Origin: Mucilaginibacter sp. OK098
Lineage (GTDB): Bacteria; Bacteroidota; Bacteroidia; Sphingobacteriales; Sphingobacteriaceae
DNA: 64,000 nucleotides
Reading direction: 5' to 3'
Assembly (NCBI RefSeq): GCF_900142915.1
Contig: NZ_FRCM01000007.1
Location: 248,001 to 312,000, forward strand
Shown here: positions 41,982 through 64,000 of the stretch, one piece after another
Layout: each line of letters begins with the position of its first letter
How positions within the stretch are numbered: position 1 is the stretch's first letter
Program-made: the position numbers and the translations under genes
Notes under the pieces: generated by a model
Seen by the model: the letters and a program-made list of their open reading frames with translations, nothing else
What the model was told of the DNA's origin: nothing
Databases searched by the model: none

Positions 41982-43409
41982 TTACCTTATCCACTTAAAG
42001 ATCCTTCTCCAACGGGTCTGGTGTAAAAAATCTGCGATTTCATCGGTGCTCATCCATATAAACAGCGCTTTGCCAACAATATGATCCTCTGGCACAAATC
42101 CCCAAAAGCGCGAATCTTCCGAGTTATGGCGGTTATCGCCCATCATCCAGTAATAATCCTGTTTAAAGGTATAGGTTGCAGCTTTTTTTCCATTGATTAT
42201 AAGATCCTTGCCTGAGATAGTAACCTTGTTGTTTTCATACACCTCAATAGCCCGTTTATACATTGGGATAGTTAAGTCATTCAATGTAATTGTCCAGCCT
42301 TTTTTAGGGATGATGATTGGGCCAAGGTTATCTAATGTCCATCTGAAGTGTTTGTCGTGCGGAAAGATTGATTCTTCAAACCCTGAGATATTCTGGTAAT
42401 ATTCAGTTACCGATTTAACGTTAGCATAAGCGCTCATTGCTTTGGCAGATTGGCGGGTCATCAGCATTTCATAGTCATTATCACCAAATTGCTGCCGTAC
42501 ATCAATATGCAGTTCCCGTAAAATAAGCGAATCAAGCAGTTGGCCGTTTGTATGTACAATATATGCAGGCTGCCCATCCACTGGGTTTAGCGCTTTTTTA
42601 CCATTTATGTAAACCTGCGCATTGATGATCGTCAGTGTATCTCCGGGAGTCGCCTGGCAGCGTTTTATATAGTTTTCGCGTTTATCAACAGGCCGGTAAA
42701 ACGGTGAATCAGCATCCATCGGATAATTAAAAACAACAACATCACCCTTTTTAACAGTGCTTAACCCTGGCAGGCGAAAATAAGGCAATTTAATGCCGTC
42801 CCAGTAAGCTTTAGTATTAATAAGCGGCATGGTATGATGGGCAAACGGAAAAGAAACCGGGGTAATTGGCGTACGCGGACCATAGTTAACCTTACTCACA
42901 AATAAATAATCGCCAATTAAGAGCGAACTTTCCATTGATCCGCTTGGGATAACGTAAGCCTCAATAAAAAAGGTACGGATCAGCGTGGCGGCAAGCATGG
43001 CAAACAATATTGCTTCTGTCCACTCCCGGGTTGATGATTTAACTAACTTTTCCCGGTGTGCTTCCTTAAACCCAATATTTGCAGATTGCCCAAGGTATTG
43101 GGTCTTTTTCTCAAAACCCCATTTTGGGAGAAATATAAATGGCAATAGTATTGCAGCGGCCTGCTGCCTTATGGTAAATTTTCCATATGACTTAACAAAA
43201 TCCATATAGATCCCGATACCAACAATAACATTAAATACCGGGATAAAAAGCCAGAAAAGCCACCAGGCGGGCCTTCCGCTTAGCTTTAGCATGATGTAGG
43301 TTGAATAACCCGGGATCAGCGCTTCCCAGCCCGGGCGGCCTGCTTTTTTAAACAGTTTCCAGGAACCGGCCCATATTAATACCAGGAACGCGACAACAGC
43401 ATATACCAT
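41982..43409 (-). CDS. Signal peptidase I with N-terminal membrane domain (third in the tandem)
   Basis: This 475-residue protein has an N-terminal region (about 1-105) with several membrane helices of the DUF5684 type (KAGRPGWEALIPGYSTYIML and SGRPAWWLFWLFIP). A helix at about 131-148 precedes the S26 catalytic domain. The serine nucleophile is Ser158 (IPSGSMESS) and the general-base lysine is Lys249 (IKRCQATPGD). The box-E motif MGDNRHNSEDSRFWGFVP is intact. The insert between lysine and box E is shorter than in the two upstream copies. It should cleave Sec signal peptides at the inner membrane. It begins 9 bases after the stop of the middle copy. Confidence 0.92.
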   Translation of the reverse strand: MVYAVVAFLVLIWAGSWKLFKKAGRPGWEALIPGYSTYIMLKLSGRPAWWLFWLFIPVFNVIVGIGIYMDFVKSYGKFTIRQQAAAILLPFIFLPKWGFEKKTQYLGQSANIGFKEAHREKLVKSSTREWTEAILFAMLAATLIRTFFIEAYVIPSGSMESSLLIGDYLFVSKVNYGPRTPITPVSFPFAHHTMPLINTKAYWDGIKLPYFRLPGLSTVKKGDVVVFNYPMDADSPFYRPVDKRENYIKRCQATPGDTLTIINAQVYINGKKALNPVDGQPAYIVHTNGQLLDSLILRELHIDVRQQFGDNDYEMLMTRQSAKAMSAYANVKSVTEYYQNISGFEESIFPHDKHFRWTLDNLGPIIIPKKGWTITLNDLTIPMYKRAIEVYENNKVTISGKDLIINGKKAATYTFKQDYYWMMGDNRHNSEDSRFWGFVPEDHIVGKALFIWMSTDEIADFLHQTRWRRIFKWIR

Positions 43410-43418
43410 TACAAAACC

Positions 43419-44882
43419 TTAATTTATTCCTTTAAATAACCTGTCCCAGCGAATTTGACTAAATAGCGGCGCTTTATCATCTGCACTCATCCAGATAAAA
43501 GATGCCTTTCCTATAATATGATCTTCCGGAACGAAACCCCAAAAGCGTGAATCATCCGAATCGTGCCTGTTATCGCCCATCATCCAGTAATAATTCAATT
43601 TAAAAGTATAGCTCTTGGTTTTTTTGCCATTTATGAATATGTCATTCCCTTTAACTTCCAGTCTATTGTTTTCATAAATATTTATGCAGCGCTCATATAG
43701 CGGGTAGGTCATACTATCAAGTTTTACTGTCCAGCCTTTCTTGGGAATAATTATAGGACCGTAATTATCCACGTTCCATTTATAATCAGGCTGTCTGCCA
43801 TTAAGCATTAAACTTGCGGGACCTACCGGATGGATGGAGTTTGTTGGATAAACCGGACTCTCTGGGTCTGTTAATCCTTTTGGTGAGATATGCGGCTTTA
43901 TTGATTTAACGTTTGAATATCCCTTTAATATCTTAGCTGCCTCAGCTGTCATGGTCGGGTTTGGATTACCGTCATACATAGAAACATGCAGGTCTTTTAA
44001 AATTTGTGGATTAAGATCGGCTCCTGTTGTAACATAAGTATAATCTATTTCCCCTTCAGATGGATTTTGTGAAGGCCTGTTATTTATATATACCTGTCCA
44101 TCAACCACGCTTAAAGTATCTCCGGCAATTCCTTCGCACCGCTTTAAGAAAATTTCGCGCTTATCAACCGGGCGATAGTAAGGTGAATCGGCATCCATAG
44201 GATAATTAAACACCACAACATCTCCTCTTTTTATGCTGCTGAAACCAGGCAACCTTAAATAAGGAAGCTTTAATCCATCCAAGTATATTTTAGTAAACGG
44301 GAATGATACGGGCCGCATTGGTGTGCGCGCTCCATAGCTTAGCTTGCTTACAAAAAAGTAATCCCCTGTAAGTAAAGTACGTTCCATTGAAGATGTTGGC
44401 ATAATGTACGACTCTATAAAAAAAGCACGAATAAATATCGCAGCGGCAACAGAGCATAAAAAAGGGACACCCCACACAATAACAGTAGGCGTTTTTGCAG
44501 GCTTTCCAAATTTTTCTTTAAACTCCGCAGTTGCAGATGGGCCTAAATATCGGGTATCATCAAAGCCCCATTTGGGTAAATAAATAAACGGGAAAAATGA
44601 GGCTGCAAGTTGTTTACGGATAGTAAATTTTCCATATGATTTTATAAAATCAATGTAGATACCCAATCCGGCAACTAAGTTTAATATTGGGATAAAAAGC
44701 CAAATGAGCCACCACGCAGGTCTACCACTTATTTTAAGCATTACGTAGGTTGAGTAAAATGGAACGAGTGCCTCCCATCCTTGCCAGCCTGCTTTTCTGA
44801 ATAATTTCCAATAACCAGGAAGCATTAAAACAAAAAAAGGGGCAGCTAATATGCATACCCCTATATAATAAGCTATTCCCAT
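43419..44882 (-). CDS. Signal peptidase I with N-terminal membrane domain (middle, apparently chimeric copy)
   Basis: This 487-residue protein combines parts of both neighbours. Residues about 1-115 match the DUF5684-type start of the downstream copy (KAGWQGWEALVPFYSTYVML and SGRPAWWLIWLFIP). From about 255 on, it matches the upstream copy closely, including a long insert with YPTNSIHPVGP and the KLDSMTYPLYERCI segment that the downstream copy lacks. The catalytic residues are present: Ser165 (MPTSSMERT) and Lys247 (LKRCEGIAGD). The segment AHHTMPLINTKAYW found in both neighbours is missing. It starts 3 bases after the stop of the upstream copy. Confidence 0.9.
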   Translation of the reverse strand: MGIAYYIGVCILAAPFFVLMLPGYWKLFRKAGWQGWEALVPFYSTYVMLKISGRPAWWLIWLFIPILNLVAGLGIYIDFIKSYGKFTIRKQLAASFFPFIYLPKWGFDDTRYLGPSATAEFKEKFGKPAKTPTVIVWGVPFLCSVAAAIFIRAFFIESYIMPTSSMERTLLTGDYFFVSKLSYGARTPMRPVSFPFTKIYLDGLKLPYLRLPGFSSIKRGDVVVFNYPMDADSPYYRPVDKREIFLKRCEGIAGDTLSVVDGQVYINNRPSQNPSEGEIDYTYVTTGADLNPQILKDLHVSMYDGNPNPTMTAEAAKILKGYSNVKSIKPHISPKGLTDPESPVYPTNSIHPVGPASLMLNGRQPDYKWNVDNYGPIIIPKKGWTVKLDSMTYPLYERCINIYENNRLEVKGNDIFINGKKTKSYTFKLNYYWMMGDNRHDSDDSRFWGFVPEDHIIGKASFIWMSADDKAPLFSQIRWDRLFKGIN

Positions 44883-44885
44883 ATA

Positions 44886-46034
44886 TTAATGAATGCCATT
44901 GAATAACCTGCTCCAGCGGATCTTGCTGAAGAATGGTGCATTATCATCCCAGCTCATCCAGATAAACAAGGCTTTGCCAACAATGTGGTCTTCAGGCACA
45001 AAACCCCAAAAGCGTGAATCGTCTGAATCATGACGGTTATCGCCCATCATCCAGAAGTAATTCATTTTAAAGGTGTAGCTGTCGGTCTTTTTGCCGTTAA
45101 TAAAAATATCGTTGCCTTTAACTTCCAGCTTGTTGTTCTCATAGGTTCTGATACAACGCTCATAAAGCGGATAGGTCATACTGTCAAGCTTTACTGTCCA
45201 CCCTTTTTTAGGAATAATTATAGGGCCATAATTGTCAACGCTCCATTTAAAGTCAGGCTGTTTGCCGTTAAGCATCAGGTTAGGCGGACCAACCGGGTGA
45301 CCCGGATTTGTAGGATAAACCGCGCTATTAGGATCACTTATCCCTTTTTGAGAAAGGATCGGTTTAAGTGATTTTATGTTTGAGTATCCTTTTAATTTAT
45401 CGGCAGATTCCTTCGTCATGGCCTGATAAGTATGCCCTTCATAAAGTGTTATGTTAAGCTCATCCGTAATTTGCGGGTTAAGATCAACACCGTTGGTTGA
45501 ATAACTGTATTCCATTTGCTCGCCCGGTGGGTTGGGAGCGATTTTGCGGTTTACATATACCTGTCCGTCAACAACACTTAAAGTATCGCCGGGAGCACCC
45601 TGGCAACGTTTTATAAAGTTTTCACGCTTATCAACCGGCCTGTAAAACGGTGAATCTGCATCCATAGGATAGTTAAATACCACCACATCGCCTTTTTTAA
45701 CATCACTTAAACCAGGTAAGCGGTAATAAGGAAGCTGGATCCCGTCCCAATAGGCCTTGGTATTTATAAGCGGCATGGTATGGTGGGCAAATGGGAATGC
45801 AATTGGTGTTATAGGTGTGCGGGCTCCGTAATTAACCTTGCTTACAAACAAAAAGTCGCCAACAAGCAGCGATCTTTCCATTGATGGGGTAGGTATTACA
45901 TAGGCTTCTATAAAAAAAGTACGGATCAAAGTTGCCGCTATTACAGCGAAAACGATAGCATCAGTCCACTCGCGTACAGCGCTTTTCTTTTTTTTAGGGG
46001 TATCTTTCTTTTTACTCCAGAATTTCCAGTTCAT
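44886..46034 (-). CDS. lepB: Signal peptidase I, short form (first in the tandem)
   Basis: This 382-residue protein lacks the extra N-terminal membrane domain. It starts with a basic segment (MNWKFWSKKKDTPKKKKS) and a single membrane helix (about 25-42). Catalytic Ser51 (IPTPSMERS) and Lys142 (IKRCQGAPGD) are clear, as is box E (MGDNRHDSDDSRFWGFVP). A long insert (about 160-270) carries DPNSAVYPTNPGHPVGP. It is the first of three tandem paralogues transcribed away from dapB, across a repeat-filled gap of 187 bases. It is the best candidate for the ancestral housekeeping leader peptidase. Confidence 0.93.
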   Translation of the reverse strand: MNWKFWSKKKDTPKKKKSAVREWTDAIVFAVIAATLIRTFFIEAYVIPTPSMERSLLVGDFLFVSKVNYGARTPITPIAFPFAHHTMPLINTKAYWDGIQLPYYRLPGLSDVKKGDVVVFNYPMDADSPFYRPVDKRENFIKRCQGAPGDTLSVVDGQVYVNRKIAPNPPGEQMEYSYSTNGVDLNPQITDELNITLYEGHTYQAMTKESADKLKGYSNIKSLKPILSQKGISDPNSAVYPTNPGHPVGPPNLMLNGKQPDFKWSVDNYGPIIIPKKGWTVKLDSMTYPLYERCIRTYENNKLEVKGNDIFINGKKTDSYTFKMNYFWMMGDNRHDSDDSRFWGFVPEDHIVGKALFIWMSWDDNAPFFSKIRWSRLFNGIH

Positions 46035-46068
46035 GTTTACAATATTGGTAATTTATTTTAGGAATACA

Positions 46069-46215
46069 GAATCAAGAGTCAAGAAATCAAGAGTCAAGAT
46101 GAAAAACTTTTCTGTCAATGCTTAAATCTTTTCTTATTTCTTCTAATCTTGATCCTTGTTTCCTGTTTATCTTTATTCTTATCTCTTGATTCTTGATCTC
46201 TTGCTTCCTGACTCT
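46069..46215. repeat. Cluster of TCAAGAGTCAAG / TCTTGATTC words
   Basis: Two direct copies of AATCAAGAGTCAAGA occur at 46069-46098 on the left. The right part (about 46140-46215) has several TCTTGATTC and CTTGATC words complementary to them. The whole can fold as an imperfect long hairpin and resembles the element at 31383-31482. It lies between dapB and the signal peptidase tandem. Confidence 0.55.
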
Positions 46216-46221
46216 CTTCTC

Positions 46222-46971
46222 TTATTTAAAGTCAAACATATCTTCAACCGAGTGGAATCCTGTTTTTCCCTGGATCCATTCAGCAGCCAATACGGCACCT
46301 AATGCAAAGCCGTTACGGTTATGGGCGGTATGTTTAAATTCTATCGAATCGACCTCTGAATCATAGATAACGGTATGCGTACCCGGAACGCTGTCAATCC
46401 GAAAGGATTCTATCAGCAGTTGATCGCTTTTTACATTATCATCCGCAGTTTCGGCGCCGTCGGCAGTAAGAGAATTAACCCATTCTTTTTTCGAGTGGAG
46501 GTTTTCAACTATTCCTTCAGCAATGGTTATGGCTGTACCACTTGGCGAATCAAGCTTTTGGGTATGGTGGATCTCTTCAACCTGCACATCATAATACGGG
46601 TAATTGTTCATCAGCCTGGCAAGCACCTTATTAACGTGGAAAAATATATTTACGCCAACACTAAAATTTGTGGCATATAACAGGGCTGTGCTGCTGCGTT
46701 CATATTGCTCTTTTAACTTTGGCAGGTTACTATACCAGCCGGTTGTACCAACAACAACAGGCACACCTGCATTAAGGCAGTGCTCAATATTACTTAATAC
46801 GGTACCGGGGGTGCTAAACTCAATGGCAACATCGGCCATTTGCAGGTTTTCGGCAGTTAGCTCATCCTGGTTATCCTGGTCAATTTTTAATACGATTTCG
46901 TGCTTGCGGTCGGTGGCAATTTTTTCAATTATCTTGCCCATTTTCCCGTATCCTAATAATGCGATCTTCAT
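46222..46971 (-). CDS. dapB: 4-hydroxy-tetrahydrodipicolinate reductase
   Basis: This 249-residue enzyme makes tetrahydrodipicolinate for lysine and diaminopimelate. The nucleotide-binding turn GYGKMG is at 7-12. The catalytic region EIHHTQKLDSPSGTA (133-147) has the His pair and Lys139. Residues 75-77 (GTT) fit the substrate loop. Length is typical. It sits between the DUF5683 gene and the signal peptidase genes on the minus strand, in an order common in Bacteroidota. Confidence 0.96.
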   Translation of the reverse strand: MKIALLGYGKMGKIIEKIATDRKHEIVLKIDQDNQDELTAENLQMADVAIEFSTPGTVLSNIEHCLNAGVPVVVGTTGWYSNLPKLKEQYERSSTALLYATNFSVGVNIFFHVNKVLARLMNNYPYYDVQVEEIHHTQKLDSPSGTAITIAEGIVENLHSKKEWVNSLTADGAETADDNVKSDQLLIESFRIDSVPGTHTVIYDSEVDSIEFKHTAHNRNGFALGAVLAAEWIQGKTGFHSVEDMFDFK

Positions 46972-63208: not shown

Positions 63209-64000
63209 ATGAAATGGAAGCTTCCTTTTACAAAGAAAACCGATAGCACTAAACCGAAAAAATCAAAAACACGCGAGTGGGTTGATGCTATATTATTTGC
63301 AGCTATTGCCTCTACCATTATTCGGGGATTGCTGTTTTCGGCATATGCAATACCATCAGGATCAATGGAAGGCACTTTGTTAACCGGCGACTATTTATTT
63401 GTAAGCAAAATAAGCTACGGCCCAAGGATGCCGTTTACACCGGTTTCAATCCCATTTTTAGAATCAACCATAACAAGATATAACGTTAAAACCTACTGGG
63501 ATGGGATTAAGCTGCCTTATTTCCGCCTGCCGGGTTTAACCGAAATAAAGAAAGGCGATATAGTTGTCTTTAATAAACCTGAAGAAGCCGATCCGTCATA
63601 CAACAGGCCGGTTGATGTGCGCACAAACCTGATAAAACGCTGCCAGGCAACCCCGGGCGATGTTTTTACCATTGTAAACGGCCAGGTATTTATAAACGGT
63701 AAAGCAGCGCCTAATGCCGAAAAAGCACAAACATCATACGAAGTAGTTACCAATGGCACCGATATTAATCCGCAGGTATACCATGATATGAGCATTGAGC
63801 TGCTTGGGCAAAAAGACGCCAATACTTATGTGATGATAATTCCGAAAGCTTATGTGGCAACACTAAAAGGCTACTCTAATATAAAGAGCATTACACCTGT
63901 TATTCAATCTGCCGGAGAATATGCGGCTGATGTTTTTCCGCATAACGAAAAATTTAAGTGGAACCAGGATAATTTCGGTCCGCTGGTTATGCCAAAACGC
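63209..64000 (+). CDS. Signal peptidase I (fourth copy), cut by the window end
   Basis: The visible 264 residues start MKWKLPFTKKTDSTKPKKSK, then one membrane helix (about 25-45). Catalytic Ser52 (IPSGSMEGT) and Lys143 (IKRCQATPGD) are present. It is of the short form, like the gene at 44886-46034, and lacks the extra membrane domain. The box-E region lies beyond the window. It is unlinked to the three-gene tandem and faces the BtuF-like gene. Confidence 0.9.
   Translation, partial: MKWKLPFTKKTDSTKPKKSKTREWVDAILFAAIASTIIRGLLFSAYAIPSGSMEGTLLTGDYLFVSKISYGPRMPFTPVSIPFLESTITRYNVKTYWDGIKLPYFRLPGLTEIKKGDIVVFNKPEEADPSYNRPVDVRTNLIKRCQATPGDVFTIVNGQVFINGKAAPNAEKAQTSYEVVTNGTDINPQVYHDMSIELLGQKDANTYVMIIPKAYVATLKGYSNIKSITPVIQSAGEYAADVFPHNEKFKWNQDNFGPLVMPKR

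Follow-up and report, generated by a model that had tools for sequence, protein, structure and literature searches.

Neighbouring signal peptidase paralogues are known from Listeria, where SipX, SipY and SipZ lie side by side and one copy does most of the work (PMC4010754, available text in part), and Streptomyces has SipW, SipX, SipY and SipZ (PMC8724576, in part). Concerted evolution of duplicates that retain an island of divergence has also been described (PMC3728101, in part). Here we analyze a 64,000-nucleotide stretch of the genome of Mucilaginibacter sp. OK098, a soil bacterium (contig NZ_FRCM01000007.1, positions 248,001 to 312,000; hereafter the window), which holds three adjacent signal peptidase I genes, designated A, B and C. 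The array resembles SipXYZ in consisting of three neighbouring paralogous genes; unlike SipXYZ, it belongs to another phylum and shows exchange between its copies, which the available part of the Listeria source does not mention (PMC4010754). As in the described concerted evolution, one part of the sequence is homogenized and another diverges, but the setting here is a bacterium and a protein-export enzyme, and we do not claim selection for a new function (PMC3728101, in part). Searches of open papers found no literature on DUF5684, none on signal peptidase I with Mucilaginibacter, and no title on signal peptidase mosaics. We consider it probable, at about 0.72, that A, B and C form a recombining tandem array in which B arose from an A-C pair and has since had its rear overwritten from A more than once.

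All three proteins resemble the bacterial type I signal peptidase LepB (PF10502, TIGR02227) in their family match, in an aligned Ser and Lys and, for B, in having E. coli LepB as the best match among solved structures. They differ from LepB in that B and C carry a DUF5684 domain in front and in the large insert between boxes D and E. The features to which the text refers are as follows, in window coordinates.

44886-46034, minus strand: gene A, signal peptidase I of 382 amino acids without DUF5684 and with a long PGHPVGP insert, the probable donor of the rear of B (open reading frame list, profile match, DNA identity, trees, site tests)
43419-44882, minus strand: gene B, mosaic signal peptidase I of 487 amino acids (open reading frame list, profile match, trees)
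41982-43409, minus strand: gene C, signal peptidase I of 475 amino acids with DUF5684 and a short insert (open reading frame list, profile match)
44538-44777, minus strand: DUF5684 of B, residues 36-115, of C's lineage (Pfam, trees, approximately unbiased (AU) test)
43086-43328, minus strand: DUF5684 of C, residues 28-108 (Pfam)
43422-44150, minus strand: A-like rear of B, residues 245-487, comprising the end of box D, the insert, box E and the C-terminus (DNA identity, trees, diagnostic cells)
44388-44390, minus strand: S165 codon of B, the nucleophile as judged from the E. coli LepB alignment
44142-44144, minus strand: K247 codon of B, presumably the general base (alignment)
44292-44297, minus strand: position of the AHHTMPLIN gap of B, flanked by F196 and T197 (alignment)

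The genes are transcribed in the order A, B, C, head to tail, with gaps of 3 bases (A-B) and 9 bases (B-C), as the initial annotation had described. Matches to PF10502 (Peptidase_S26) scored 148 bits for C, 134 for B and 138 for A against a cut-off of 22.9, and the TIGR02227 matches likewise exceeded the family cut-off. Pfam detected DUF5684 in B and C and not in A, and alignment placed the HPVGP motif in both A and B, the insert of C being shorter and different; the earlier description of A and C thus stands. In the three-way alignment, identity to A was 68% for B and 63% for C.

Among 149 genomes of the genus, 146 of which gave a match to gene A, the first 266 residues of B were matched at at least 75% identity in three: the window genome (G000), G016 and G112. 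The next-best match to the B front, among the matches listed in order of score, was 64% identical. The three B genes were compared with A, C and the B-like genes of the G130 group (B') in trees and AU tests run separately for each part of the protein on 56 rows hand-picked from 166 (30 rows for the DUF5684 part), with larger sets for the core (residues 136-244; 144-row tree) and, distant rows left out, for residues 245-440 (135-row AU test). The motif comparison left out loci L125 and L134, and one further alignment left out five distant rows.

These comparisons revealed a switch of affinity along B. At the DNA level, B residues 41-80 are 72% identical to C, and A has nothing to align there; over residues 301-340, identity is 63% between A and B vs 39% between B and C. 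The DUF5684 tree placed B in a clade with C, B' and some other copies (18 of the 30 rows, support 98), and a grouping of C, B' and related copies without B received p=0.044. In the core, the three B genes formed one clade (support 97), which joined B' at 88 and lay on the C side at 83-89 in the 56-row tree and on the A side at 81 in the 144-row tree; the AU test accepted both B with A (p=0.54) and B with C and B' (p=0.44). In residues 245-440, the B genes fell inside the A clade, apart from each other and each following the A lineage of its host. A single B clade was rejected there (p=0.0012 with 56 rows, 0.0215 with 135 rows), as were B+C (0.0001), B'+C (0.0004) and B+B' (1e-50) with 56 rows. 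For residues 441-487 the B genes grouped together (86) beside A genes, with p=0.07 for B+C and 0.46 for B'+A+B. Diagnostic cells, scored in the three B genes at positions where A and C of six genomes are each fixed in a different state, were A-like vs C-like at 48/0 in residues 245-440, 18/3 in 441-487 and 3/3 in 136-180, with none in 181-244. The AU tests make an artefact of long branches an unlikely source of the switch in residues 245-440; in the core such an artefact may play a part. By these comparisons, the rear of B from about residue 245 is A-like and its DUF5684 is of C's lineage. The mosaic proposed by the initial annotation is therefore upheld in outline, except that the front does not group with C alone and the switch of sister relationship, which does occur, cannot be assigned to one point.

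Site tests for gene conversion localized the A-like signal. Sequence from 3.6 kb upstream groups the host genomes as G000 with G104, near G112 and G146, and G016 with G095. Within amino acids 224-426, B of G112 matched its own A rather than the window B at 110 of 153 sites, vs 40 of 133 outside (p=0.0005); within 241-461, B of G016 matched A of G095 at 153 of 169 sites, vs 40 of 115 outside (p=0.0005). Outside these tracts both genes stay B-like, so the tracts are bounded on both sides, and the ends of B in the window genome and G112 are 91% identical in DNA windows. Synonymous divergence (dS) of B of G016 from A of G095 was 0.44 in residues 245-440, 2.13 in 136-244 and 1.14 in 441-487. The middle of the window B sits in the wider A clade. 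Compared with the C of the same array, amino acids 303-482 of this B were A-like at 120 of 149 sites, vs 73 of 127 in the rest of the gene (p=0.0035); tested against B of G016 the result was 78 of 137 (p=0.021), and against B of G112 p=0.0005. Four triplets served as negative controls, each testing C against the A of the same genome. The A-like sites inside numbered 12/34, 48/111, 47/109 and 25/73, with p values of 0.44, 0.057, 0.0135 and 0.37, and none of the four had an A-like majority. Because one control reached p=0.0135, p alone is an unsafe criterion, and we required an A-like majority inside the tract as well. A-to-B gene conversion appears to have happened more than once, in delimited tracts some 200 codons long, because the B genes share one core clade yet their middles follow the host A lineages; it would be a later process, because the tracts stop short of the gene's end.

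Conversion of the DUF5684 part was also considered, with B tested against its own C, and is not claimed: p values were 0.001, 0.04 and 0.11, but fewer than half of the sites inside were C-like (27/56, 33/89, 25/89). Exchange between genes 2 and 3 of G125-type arrays gave no clear picture in windows. Among 27 close species pairs examined for exchange of the middle part, only A of G095-G016 stood out, with a ratio of middle to core dS of 4.4 (next pair 2.9). A of G016 (L025:7998-9149) differs from A of G095 at a dS of 1.33 in residues 245-440 and 0.30 in the core, and its residues 245-440 were probably themselves exchanged.

We next consider where the array occurs. In 60 chosen neighbourhoods, the array held one copy in 33, two in 14 and three in 13. 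One of the 33 single-copy loci (L024, G069) contains an additional gene, truncated where the contig stops, that reads as C-like with DUF5684; this partial gene was not among the rows of the 56-row trees. With the window locus added (61 loci), the layouts from front to rear were a lone gene without DUF5684 (22) or with it (10), DUF5684/none/DUF5684 (11), none/DUF5684 (9), none/none (4), none/DUF5684/DUF5684 (3) and DUF5684/none (1), plus the one with the cut gene. The DUF5684/none/DUF5684 loci (L050, L052, L053, L055-L058, L069, L076-L078) are a different three-gene array from that of the window. Across the relatives read, the layout of the window array is not conserved, and the search for two-copy genomes, which bears on the two-gene ancestor assumed by the initial annotation, found A and C only, without B in the array, in the close relatives G104, G146 and G095; the best matches to the B front in these genomes were their C genes.

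The initial annotation had treated DUF5684 as a mark of the last gene, but the domain is an old layout that A has lost, because relatives from outside the genus carry it in front of the peptidase. Pfam found it there in all four tested (two Chitinophagaceae, one Bacteroidales and one Olivibacter), the DUF5684 part of the alignment was filled in 14 Chitinophagaceae-type and Bacteroidales rows, and in some genus members the first or only gene still has it. Apparent stand-alone DUF5684 proteins were also seen: short frames of 146-191 residues, about 40% identical and matching only the DUF5684 part of C (G114:C22:10026-10334, G146:C1:4393309-4393617, G095:C12:30292-30597, G016:C22:30598-30903 and others).

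The gene junctions, read by eye, bear on how B arose. The C genes of G104 and G146 have a TTG start immediately after the A stop codon; in G069 two bases separate the two. In G000 and G112 it is B that begins immediately after the A stop, and the start of C, which here comes after the A-like end of B, is shorter and changed. The A-B junction resembles the A-C junction of G104, and the start of C is altered in B-carrying genomes. This pattern is expected from unequal exchange, but duplication of C followed by later conversion could leave the same. Duplication of the whole of C, with the first copy then converted by A over its rear and no A-C crossing-over, is the alternative that survives best, and we regard it as possible but unlikely. 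Conversion is demonstrated at the locus, and five genomes (G130, G062, G136, G027, G121) have a DUF5684 gene with an A-like middle (B') after A, no third array gene having been seen there. The scheme needs two steps, however, and its conversion must reach the stop codon, since residues 441-487 of B are A-like at 18 cells against 3. The end of B' lends it no help, being unassignable (AU p=0.46 with A and B; 22 diagnostic cells A-like, 5 C-like).

A single unequal crossing-over in an A-C pair, followed only by point mutation, is the form in which the initial annotation explained B. It accounts for a front of C's lineage and a rear that is A-like up to the stop, for B starting where C starts in A-C genomes and for C following an A-like 3' end in B-carrying ones. 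It does not account for three B genes that form one clade in the core and not in residues 245-440. B of G016 differs from A of G095 by a dS of 0.44 in the middle vs 2.13 in the core, a divergence too recent to date back to the founding of B. Crossing-over therefore fits the origin of B, but one event is insufficient, and we hold the single-event version to be improbable. Still less credible is an old independent DUF5684 paralogue that predates the split from the G130 group and is A-like at the rear by common descent: DUF5684 is indeed old and B joins B' in the core, but residues 245-440 of B and B' lie with different A lineages and the B+B' clade is rejected at the p of 1e-50 given above. An assembly artefact from misjoined reads, to which similar tandem genes are prone and for which the metagenome bin G112 might be suspected, deserves almost no credence, given the same layout with diverged sequences in three genomes.

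Several points weigh against our preferred explanation, recombination in the array with repeated overwriting of B. The trees were quick searches supported only by the Shimodaira-Hasegawa-like approximate likelihood ratio test (SH-aLRT), and the AU groups were partly picked after the trees had been seen. In the DUF5684 tree, C and B' exclude B at 84, so B does not stand next to C alone, and B+C (p=0.24) is neither shown nor rejected. By these data the crossover point cannot be placed, because placing the core with A is as acceptable as placing it with C. The window B shows the weakest sign of conversion of the three. With A of G016 as the test gene, a segment was like its own B at 93 of 140 sites, so the site test runs both ways and the A-to-B direction, on present sequences, would rest on the nesting of B within A in the tree. 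The control at p=0.0135 counts here too; dS was often saturated; and two of the genomes, G112 and G104, are bins from metagenomes (7% contamination, 86% completeness).

Under the favoured explanation, unequal crossing-over in an A-C pair would most simply have joined a C-type front to an A-type rear and so given rise to B. The rear, mainly residues 220-460 (224-461 in the relatives), would later have been overwritten repeatedly from A by gene conversion, a part that comprises box D, the inserted domain and, in G016, also box E. Trees and tracts point to this overwriting for the B genes of G112 and G016, whereas in the window copy it may be older or more diverged. The front of B, with DUF5684, the membrane helix and the nucleophile region, seems to have escaped conversion and to have evolved as one lineage, fast and under purifying selection. 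The absence of B from G104, G095 and G146 would most simply reflect loss, with strain-to-strain replacement as another possibility.

In B, S165, which aligns with SM of E. coli LepB, and K247, which we take to be the general base, are invariant in 68 sequences, and A, B and C all keep the Ser-Lys pair. In B, what we assume to be boxes B, C, D and E occupy residues 162-174, 220-228, 237-255 and 431-449, and the conversion tracts run from box D, or the last part of it, through the insert and in G016 include box E as well. The predicted structure of B (predicted local distance difference test score 85.7, predicted template modelling score 0.75) combines a helical front with a body resembling LepB; its match to E. 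coli LepB, at probability 1.00, is local (template modelling score 0.28 by query and 0.55 by target, root-mean-square deviation 11.5). B evolves under purifying selection: values of omega were 0.00-0.19 wherever computable (0.03-0.15 for pairs of B genes), although many values were saturated. Core branches of the B genes, at 0.14-0.31 on a stem of 0.34, were longer than those of the A rows shown (0-0.05). A, the slowest copy, is probably the housekeeping copy, and B would be a variant in which the anchor and the substrate-facing front differ and the remainder is held like A's.

Ten residues are common to the three B genes and occur in none of 20 A and 6 C genes; four of these ten cluster near the nucleophile, at 161-176. 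The sequence peculiarities singled out by the initial annotation fared less well: PTSSME also occurs in B of G016 and in the Bacteroidales loci L139, L140, L141 and L143, and EGIAGD in a G130 B-like gene and the second gene of G037; neither motif denotes an unusual active site. As for the lost segment, only AHHTMPLIN is deleted in B, the TKAYW that follows being present as TKIYL. The gap, which carries little weight, is private to the window B: the B genes of G112 and G016 retain a diverged version of the segment.

Upstream of A lies a gene at 46222-46971, which we take to be dapB. Between it and A, at 46068-46210, are two adjacent 15-base repeats, AATCAAGAGTCAAGA, with an inverted partner. 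Scans for promoters and Rfam families yielded nothing further. About 17 kb from the array, near window position 63209, begins a fourth signal peptidase gene that the initial annotation does not mention. It lies on the plus strand, extends beyond the end of the window (L010:5210-6319), encodes 369 amino acids from its ATG and lacks DUF5684. Second-site copies resembling it occur in several genomes of the genus.

As members of their family, A, B and C should cut Sec signal peptides, and that B has its own client set is a guess. It is a rather doubtful proposition that B has its periplasmic insert and boxes D-E continually refreshed from A by conversion while selection lets the anchor and nucleophile region diverge toward client proteins of its own; if specificity is altered, the front of B, at 161-176 around the nucleophile, is where the change may lie. 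Judged by the relatives compared here, copies with DUF5684 are usual, and hence a variant of the phylum and not of the window genome. The process is a known one, gene conversion in a tandem array, of which this locus is a clear bacterial case. Because the front of this export enzyme does not share the history of its rear, naming such copies by their domains or placing them by a tree of the whole gene would mislead.

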